NCBI GenBank assembly: GCA_000230955.3
Contig: CP007060.1
Coordinates: forward strand, 1,860,001 to 1,924,000
Direction: 5' to 3'
Length of the DNA: 64,000 nt
Source: Halobacterium sp. DL1
Lineage (GTDB): Archaea; Halobacteriota; Halobacteria; Halobacteriales; Halobacteriaceae
Shown here: positions 12,030 through 15,374 of the stretch, in pieces
How the letters are laid out: every line of letters begins with the position of its first letter
Numbering within the stretch: position 1 is the stretch's first letter
Program-made: the position numbers and the translations under genes
Notes under the pieces: generated by a model
Databases searched by the model: none
What the model saw: only the letters and a program-made list of their open reading frames with translations
Told to the model about the DNA's origin: nothing

Positions 12030-13178
12030 TCAGAACGTCTCGGAGTCGTGCGTGCCGACGATGCCGGGACGTTCGAGACCGTAGTGGCCGACGACCTGCA
12101 CCACCATCGCGGCGATGATGCCGTTGAGCGCAGCGATACCGGGAATCAGCTGTGGCGCACCGACCCCGGGGATGACGGCACCCGCAGTGAGCGCGGCGAC
12201 GACGCAGCCGAGGACGTACGCGACAACCGGGACGACCCGCACGCTCGCGAAGTCGACGGACTCCATCCGCGGGATGTTCAGCCGCCAGCAGAGCAGCAAG
12301 TCGGCGATGAGGACGCCGCCGAGCGGCGGGACGTACTGGCCGAGCGTCGAGAGCCACGGGATCAACAGGTTCGCGACGCCGAACAGGGCGAGCGCGATAC
12401 CGATGGCCCCGCCCGCCAGCACGAACGGACGCTTCCGGTCGTAGTCGAAGGCCTCGCTACCCGCGACGCCGAACGCGTACGCGGCGTTGTCGTTCGTCGT
12501 CCAGATGTTGAGGATGAGCGCGATGAGACCGACCGCTGCGAGCCCCTGGACGGCGAGCACCTCGTAAAGGTCCCCGCCTGTGTCGGCGTAGACGGCGCCG
12601 CCCACCGCCCCGCTGACGAACAGGAAGCTGTTGCCGATGAGGAACGCGATGAGGCCGGCCCAGAACCCGGTGCGCCGCGAGGAGGCGAATCGGGCCCAGT
12701 TCGGCGCCTGCGTGCCACCCGAGATGAACGTCCCGACGACGATGGTGACGGCGGCACCGAACGTCATCGAACCGGCGCTCCCAGTCGTCTCCATCAGGCC
12801 GCCGAGGCCGCCGGCGTCCTGGAGCGCGATGCCGATGGACAGAACGCCGACGACGACGAGGACGGGGACGGCTACTAGCGAGAGTTTCTCCATGCCCTCG
12901 TAGCCGAAGTACGCTGTCGCGAGGTGGAACAGCCCCCAGAGGAGGATGAGCGCGGACACCCACGTGGGCGTGTTGACGCCGAAGAACTTCGCGGTCGGGA
13001 TAGCGACGAGCGGGATGGTGACGCCGAACCAGCCGACCTGCGTCCCGCCGAGCAGGAGGTCGGCCCACTTCGCGCCGAGGCGGCCGAACGTGTACCGGGA
13101 GAGCAGTACGGTGGTGAGCCCGGTCTGTGCCCCGATGGCGCAGAGGGTAGCGACGTAGATGCCGAGTATGGCGCTGCC
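12030..13178 (-). pseudogene. codB: cytosine permease remnant (codB), N-terminus deleted
   Basis: Reads as a 382-residue NCS1-family permease that aligns with E. coli CodB from about its residue 60: ILGIYVATLCAIGAQTGLTT, LLGGTQVGWFGV, then GTFISGGTQAPNWARF and LNIWTTNDNAAYAFG. The first helix and a half, with the N-terminus and promoter, are absent. Upstream of 13178 the reading frame simply passes through the opposite strand of the codA remnant, so the 624-residue ORF seen there is not a natural protein. No start codon lies near the break. Conserved C-terminal residues are otherwise intact, so the loss looks recent. Confidence 0.8.
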
Positions 13179-14123
13179 CACGGCGTCACGCGCGTTCGAA
13201 CGCACGCCGACACCACAGAGGAGTCGCTCACGGCCGTCGAAGCACTGCTCGACCTCCGCGACGAAGTCGACGACCTGGTCGACCTGCAGGTCGTCGCGTT
13301 CCCCCAGGACGGCGTCTACACGGACGACCACCACGAGGACTTGCTCCGGGAGGCCGTGGAGATGGGGGTCGACGTCGTCGGCGGCATCCCCCACAACGAG
13401 CACACGCGCGAGGACGGCGTGAAAGACGTGAAGATAGCCTTCGACCTCGCAGAGCGCTACGACCGCCGAATCGACCTCCACATCGACGAGACGGACGACC
13501 CTGGGTCGCGGTTCACCGAGGTGCTGGCGAGCGAGGCCATCAAGCGAGACATGGGCGACCGCACCACCGCCAGTCACACGACGGCGATGCACTCCTACCC
13601 GAACTCGTACGCGAGCAAAGTCACAGCGCTGCTCGCGGAGTCCGGCGCCACCGTCGTCACCAACCCGCCGGACAACAGCGTGCTCCAGGGGCGGTACGAC
13701 GACTACCCGCGACGGCGCGGCCACACCCGCATCGACGAACTGCGCGAGGCGGGCGTGTCCGTCGGCGTCGGCCACGACTCCGTGATGGACCCCTGGTACC
13801 ACTACGGCGTCGGGGACCCGCTCGACGCCGCGTTCGTCCTCCTCCACTACGCCCACATGAGCGGCCGCGGCGACGTCGAACCCATCTGGGACATGCTCAC
13901 GCACGCGAACGCCGAGGTGTTCGGTGTCGACGCCTACGGCCTCGCCGAGGGCAACGAGGGGTCACTCGTCGTCTACGACAGCCCCGACGGCTTCAACGCC
14001 CTCCGCACACAGGCACCCCGCCGCCTCGTGCTCAGGGACGGCCGCCCCATCGCCCGCACGGAACCCGCGACCACGACAGTCAGCCGCGAGTCCAGCGACG
14101 TCGACGTCGACTTCCACCGCTGA
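13179..14123 (+). pseudogene. codA: cytosine deaminase remnant (codA), N-terminus deleted
   Basis: About 314 residues matching the C-terminal three quarters of CodA, beginning abruptly at HGVTRVRTHADTTEESL (near E. coli CodA residue 115). It retains DLHIDETDD, ASHTTAMHSY and GHDSVMDPW, which hold some of the metal and catalytic residues, but has lost the N-terminal HxH metal ligands and the start. The upstream frame is the antisense of the codB remnant. The gene cannot make an active deaminase. An intact family member lies convergently at 14139-15374. Confidence 0.8.
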
Positions 14124-14138
14124 CCAGCGGCCACCCGA

Positions 14139-15374
14139 CTACGCCACCACCGCCGACCGAATCTCGTTTTCCGCGACCACGCTGCCCTCGTGGAGCACGT
14201 AGCGCGGCGCCACGCCCTCCCGGAGCGCGTCCGTCGGGGTCTCGACACTCGGCGGGAAGACGTTGACTGTCGCCGGTGCGCCCGCTTCGAGGCCGTGGTC
14301 GATGCCCATCACGTCCGCGGCGTTTCTGCCGACCATGTTCCACGCAGCCTGGCGCTCGGCGGGCGTCTGAAGGTGGGCGGCGTGCGCGGTGAGCAGTGCC
14401 GTCTCCAGCATGCTCGCGCGGCCGTACGGGTAGAAGCCGTCGCGGATGCAGTCCTGGCCCGTTGCGACCGTGAGGCCGGCCGCGCGGAGTTCGTCGACCC
14501 GCGTGATGCCGCGGCGCTTCGGGTGGCTGTCGTGGCGGCCCTGAAGCAGCAGGTTGGTCGGCGGGTTCGTCACCATCTTGACGCCGGCCTCAGCGAGCAG
14601 GTCGACGACCCGAGCGGCATGTGCGTCGTCGTAGGCGGCCAGTGCGCACGTGTGGCCGGCGGTCACGTCCTCGACGCCACGGTCGATAGCCTCCGCGGCG
14701 AGGTACTCCAGGGAGCGCGCGGTCGGGTCGTCGGTCTCGTCGACGTGCATGTCCACTGGGACGCCGTATTCGGTGGCCAGGTCTAGGCAGGCGTCGACGT
14801 GCTCTTGGGTGTCGGCGTCGCTGCGTTCGTTGGCCGGCATCCCGCCGATGGCGTCCGCGCCCTCCGCCAGTGCGTCCACGAGCAGCTCCGCCGTGCCGGG
14901 GTCCCGAACGACGCCCTCCTGGGGGAACGCGACCACCTGCACGTCGGCGACGTCGCTCCACGCCTCGCGGGCCTCGACGACGCCGCGGAGCGGTGTGAGA
15001 CCGCCGATGGTGTCGACGTCGACGTGCGTGCGGAGTCGGGTGCAGCCGTTCCGGACGTGGGCCTCGATGGCTCGTCCGGCGCGCTCTCGGACGTCCTCGA
15101 CCGTGTACTCCCGTTTCCTGTCGTGGATGTTCGCGATGGCCTCGCCGAGCGTCCCGCTCTCGTTGTCGGGGAGTTCGTCGGCGATGTACGCCTTGTCGAG
15201 GTGCACGTGGCAGTCGACGAACCCGGGCGCGAGGAGGCCGCCGTCGGCGTCGAGTTCGCGTGCTGCGTCGGCACTCGTGCTGTCGAGGGAGGCGATAGCG
15301 TCTCCGTCGATTGCGACGTCCGCGGTTCGGCCGTCGGGTAGGCGAGCGTTCCTGACGAGGAGGTCGTGTGCCAT
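14139..15374 (-). CDS. cytosine deaminase-family amidohydrolase
   Basis: A 411-residue amidohydrolase of the CodA/N-acyl-D-amino acid type with a complete mononuclear metal site: HVHLDKA (His56, His58), DMHVDETDD, AGHTCAL and TGQDCIRD. It shares the CodA-like phrases RLRTHVDVD and VQVVAFPQEG. It probably hydrolyses an exocyclic or cyclic amidine of a nucleobase-like ring; cytosine, isocytosine or a related heterocycle are all possible. It starts at ATG 15374, with an upstream TATA-like TTAAGG. It ends 16 nt from the convergent codA remnant and may partly replace its function. Confidence 0.8.
   Translation of the reverse strand: MAHDLLVRNARLPDGRTADVAIDGDAIASLDSTSADAARELDADGGLLAPGFVDCHVHLDKAYIADELPDNESGTLGEAIANIHDRKREYTVEDVRERAGRAIEAHVRNGCTRLRTHVDVDTIGGLTPLRGVVEAREAWSDVADVQVVAFPQEGVVRDPGTAELLVDALAEGADAIGGMPANERSDADTQEHVDACLDLATEYGVPVDMHVDETDDPTARSLEYLAAEAIDRGVEDVTAGHTCALAAYDDAHAARVVDLLAEAGVKMVTNPPTNLLLQGRHDSHPKRRGITRVDELRAAGLTVATGQDCIRDGFYPYGRASMLETALLTAHAAHLQTPAERQAAWNMVGRNAADVMGIDHGLEAGAPATVNVFPPSVETPTDALREGVAPRYVLHEGSVVAENEIRSAVVA

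Follow-up and report, generated by a model that had tools for sequence, protein, structure and literature searches.

In the window, which is the whole stretch of 64,000 nucleotides of Halobacterium sp. DL1 analyzed here, an intact divergent codB–codA pair has very probably been turned into two truncated genes lying head to head by a single, probably repeat-guided deletion of 657 bp, through which codB would have lost 74 codons, codA 115 codons, and the pair its promoter region of 90 bp. The initial annotation had proposed that one deletion joined the two divergent genes, and this is borne out by the comparison with a relative, since a loss of 657 bp converts the arrangement of that relative into the one of the window.

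When the 2.1-kb region was used as a query against the genomes available for the genus, 13 in number, strong matches were obtained in only one other genome, G012. This genome holds an intact head-to-head codB–codA pair, the starts of which lie 90 bp apart, so that the intact relative that had been recommended for comparison is available. The gene neighbourhood is the same; in equal order and orientation, both genomes encode an NCS2 permease, a CocE-type hydrolase, CodB, CodA, a second amidohydrolase, and FAD-binding and molybdenum-binding oxidoreductase subunits. Positions 282323–283478 of contig C1 of G012 correspond to 12030–13185 of the window with 88% identity, and positions 284122–285073 to 13172–14123 with 89% identity; both pieces align without gaps and overlap by 14 bp at the join. 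The two alignment registers are offset by exactly 657 bp and switch within 13172–13185 with no extra base. Calculated per 100 bp, the left register shows 84–94% identity as far as 13129, and from 13230 onwards the right register shows 83–96%. The segment of G012 that is absent from the window is composed of 222 bp of codB (codons 1–74), 90 bp of intergenic DNA, and 345 bp of codA (codons 1–115).

From this alignment, the remnants meet almost exactly, as had been noted before, and the placement of the join at 13178/13179 was about right, the actual position being about 13175–13185, i.e., at or a few bases to the right of it. For CodA, the estimate of about 115 lost residues was correct, while that of about 60 for CodB is to be raised to 74, which is the only numeric correction. 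The missing 657 bp include the start codons of both genes and the promoter region that they share, in line with the earlier reading, and neither filler nor a mobile element is found at the join in the alignment with G012. The features are compiled in Table 1.

Table 1. Features at and beside the codB–codA join (positions in the window).
Feature	Position	Strand	Remarks
Predicted codB pseudogene, NCS1 cytosine permease without first 74 residues and without start/promoter	12030..13184	-	corresponds to residues 75-458 of G012 CodB
Deletion junction with probable direct repeat GCC(C/G)ACGGC(G) at 13176-13185	13172..13185	.	657 bp of G012 missing, no filler
Predicted codA pseudogene, cytosine-deaminase-type amidohydrolase without residues 1-115 and without start/promoter	13185..14123	+	profile and G012 comparison
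Intact paralogous amidohydrolase, neighbour outside the event	14139..15374	-	about 41% identical to CodA; also in G012

The codB remnant encodes the C-terminal 384 residues of the permease, which are 91% identical to the matching part of G012 CodB, and is recognized by the Pfam profile Transp_cyt_pur (E 6.5e-18) from profile position 51. In the codA remnant, 312 C-terminal residues are left, which are 91% identical to G012 CodA from about residue 116 to 427; the remnant matches Amidohydro_3 (E 5.1e-34) from profile position 171. Upstream of the remnants, no codons of either N-terminus are present. The neighbouring amidohydrolase of the same family had already been described as intact; it also adjoins the intact pair in G012 and is therefore not a later replacement for codA.

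The genome of the window comprises 3.16 Mb in 2 contigs and is 99.8% complete. Elsewhere in this genome, only short weak matches to the missing 657-bp segment are found and, hence, relocation of the segment was rejected; a second CodB was not found in the genome either. The junction is shared by none of the other relatives examined. These data bear on the question of whether the assembler has collapsed two short similar stretches, with both genes being intact in the living cell. The location of the join at a short near-repeat and the remnants' lack of any sign of decay would fit such an artefact; however, a repeat of 9-10 bp is far below any assembly overlap length, the genome is 99.8% complete in its two contigs, and the missing bases occur nowhere else in it. 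A wrong join at a 10-bp near-repeat is thus unlikely, and we give it only a small probability.

At the breakpoint, the window follows codB through the serine codon AGC at 13173–13175 and codA from 13176 on. This serine codon is common to the window and G012, with tyrosine being found in most outgroups. Bases 13176–13184 (GCCCACGGC) encode A75-V76-G77 of CodB on the minus strand and A113-H114-G115 of CodA on the plus strand. The codA sequence at the break is GCCCACGGCG, which is likewise the sequence of the window. On the codB side, the plus strand of several haloarchaeal relatives often reads GCCGACGGC, with one mismatch to the codA sequence. G012 has CCCGACAGC at this site, which departs from codA at three third codon positions within 9 bp, all of these changes being silent, and does not constitute a perfect repeat; because of this, and since the undeleted ancestor of the window lineage is lost, the repeat on the codB side was taken from the other relatives. 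The few bases of microhomology suspected at 13170-13185 probably correspond to a repeat at 13176-13185. On these grounds, short direct repeats probably guided the deletion.

The following course of events is the most likely one. The ancestor would have possessed an intact divergent codB–codA pair, with CodB importing cytosine or a similar base and CodA deaminating the same compound. Illegitimate recombination or end-joining would then have taken place between two short imperfect direct repeats of about 9-10 bp, one of them at codB codons 75-77 and the other at codA codons 113-115, so that the promoter region of 90 bp would be removed in full, together with 74 codons of codB and 115 of codA. 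Loss of the two genes in separate steps, for instance by excision of an insertion element together with its flanks or by two successive deletions, would be compatible with one and the same end state, but neither filler nor a trace of an element nor an offset is seen, and one event accounts for everything; such a stepwise course is improbable.

The polarity of the change can be read from the distribution of the pair in haloarchaea. Intact divergent codB–codA pairs are found in at least 15 other haloarchaea (loci L035, L036, L042, L044, L049–L051, L053, L055, L057, L059, L060, L062, L063, L066, L068, L073, and L077, among others), with starts mostly 80–180 bp apart and nearly all N-termini of full length. 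Since the pair is intact and divergent across this group, the intact state is ancestral and the window represents a deletion. With the thresholds used, a CodA match is found in 32 genomes of the 392 in the order and in 4 of the 26 in the family, and this patchiness is in keeping with an accessory function subject to frequent gain and loss. In two genomes of the same family, G015 and G018, the CodA and CodB matches have statistics equal to those of the Halarchaeum records L059 and L060, which points to Halobacteriaceae as the family.

Several loci deviate from the common pattern. In Halobellus rarus (L041:2724-7281), the divergent starts are about 1.9 kb apart compared with roughly 0.1 kb in most others, and the gap may hold some insertion. 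The CodB match is interrupted in L065:2396-3657, which derives from a MAG, with residues 77-131 missing, and in L047:4596-5902, with residues 195-225 unmatched; these may be further codB copies that are damaged or divergent. The locus L149:3258-4545 of another haloarchaeon, G081, considered as a second truncated codA, was rejected as such, for it holds a full-length codA in which a frameshift is located near residues 122–129, unrelated to the junction of the window. It is either an independent pseudogene or a sequencing error, and no CodB match lies beside it in the 8 kb fetched.

Loss of function is judged from the residues that are missing. In CodA, for which the numbering of the E. coli enzyme (1k6w) is used, we take H61, H63, H214, and D313 to be the metal ligands and E217 and H246 to be catalytic. 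H214, E217, H246, and D313 are kept in the remnant, while H61 and H63 are deleted, and the set expected of a functional cytosine deaminase is therefore incomplete. A functional NCS1 permease of the CodB type would have 12 transmembrane (TM) helices and a Na2 site built from TM1 and TM8. With residues 1-74 deleted, the codB remnant is devoid of TM1 and of the start of TM2; in a solved CodB-type protein, half of the sodium site is made up of TM1 main-chain carbonyls, those of Gly29 and Phe32 (PMC9379551). Given the loss of metal ligands, the TM1 sodium site, both starts, and the promoter, both remnants are almost certainly non-functional pseudogenes and would no longer be expressed.

As a separate observation, haloarchaeal CodA carries a serine at position 314 beside D313 (intact G012 CodA, L033:5791-7071; window, 13779-13781). 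The best-matching solved chain, 1r9z, has serine at 314, too; it is the engineered E. coli CodA mutant D314S, in which the preference for 5-fluorocytosine is altered. The true substrate of haloarchaeal CodA with Ser 314 may be other than cytosine.

By the deletion, antisense frames are fused in phase with the remnants, giving open frames of 624 amino acids at 12030-13904 (minus strand) and of 399 amino acids at 12924-14123 (plus strand). It could be argued that the truncated genes are still used, either as a short CodB starting from GTG 13181 or with the chimeric frames expressed as new proteins, all the more as each strand has an open frame running through the join and omega is of the purifying type. 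Yet the promoter is gone, as are catalytic metal ligands and the sodium site of TM1, omega mostly reflects the time before the deletion, and the antisense frames that make up the extra parts are open and in phase in intact G012 already, for which reason the long frames were rejected as a sign of function. Continued use is thus exceedingly improbable. The same holds for the idea that a selective advantage of losing base uptake and deamination, e.g., as an escape from toxic base analogues, led to fixation of the deletion, and that the fused antisense and sense frames gave a new expressed protein. An annotation pipeline could nevertheless call the two chimeric frames as proteins, and annotators should be aware of this.

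That the deletion is probably recent had been suggested from the good preservation of the remnants, and the comparison with G012 points in the same direction. The 696 codons of the remnants contain neither frameshifts nor stops. Their dN/dS against G012 is 0.15 for codB and 0.11 for codA, compared with 0.075–0.175 for five intact neighbours, at a dS of about 0.38 for both. Branch lengths were estimated from amino-acid and nucleotide data; when outgroups are included, the branch of the window receives 8 amino-acid changes and that of G012 receives 15, and in amino-acid branch length the former is the shorter and not the longer one. According to a rough Poisson calculation, which assumes that the neutral rate equals the synonymous rate, it is unlikely that the remnants were unconstrained for a share of the branch exceeding about 5–10%. 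As dN/dS resembles that of intact neighbours and no excess change has accumulated on the branch of the window, a deletion that is recent on a relative scale is supported.

Summarizing, we regard the event as well resolved but ordinary, namely as the recent loss of a dispensable gene pair for nutrient use by a deletion that is probably of a known haloarchaeal type. It provides an example, resolved to the base, of the loss of accessory catabolic genes in haloarchaea; since codB and codA share a divergent promoter, one deletion, probably between short repeats, would inactivate transporter and enzyme at once.

By profile and sequence, the remnants belong to the same families as E. coli CodA (1k6w) and Proteus CodB (7qoa). 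In E. coli, codBA is a co-directional operon; haloarchaeal codB and codA are, in contrast, divergent, and in the window both are truncated. Repeat-mediated deletions between direct repeats of 4–20 bp have been described for Haloquadratum walsbyi (C23/HBSQ001) and Halobacterium salinarum (R1/NRC-1), with sizes from 10 bp to 34 kb; in several cases, the repeat is imperfect in the strain not affected by the deletion (PMC3119063). The present locus has the undeleted relative and the insert-free join of such deletions, and resembles them also in the probable short repeat within that range, the size, and the imperfect repeat in the unaffected relative. It differs in the head-to-head joining of divergent genes, in a perfect repeat that is deduced, and in the comparison being one of species rather than strains. 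Microhomology-mediated end joining occurs in Haloferax volcanii (PMC7521656) and likewise leaves short homology at a simple deletion junction, although evidence for a targeted double-strand break, as in that system, is not seen in the window.
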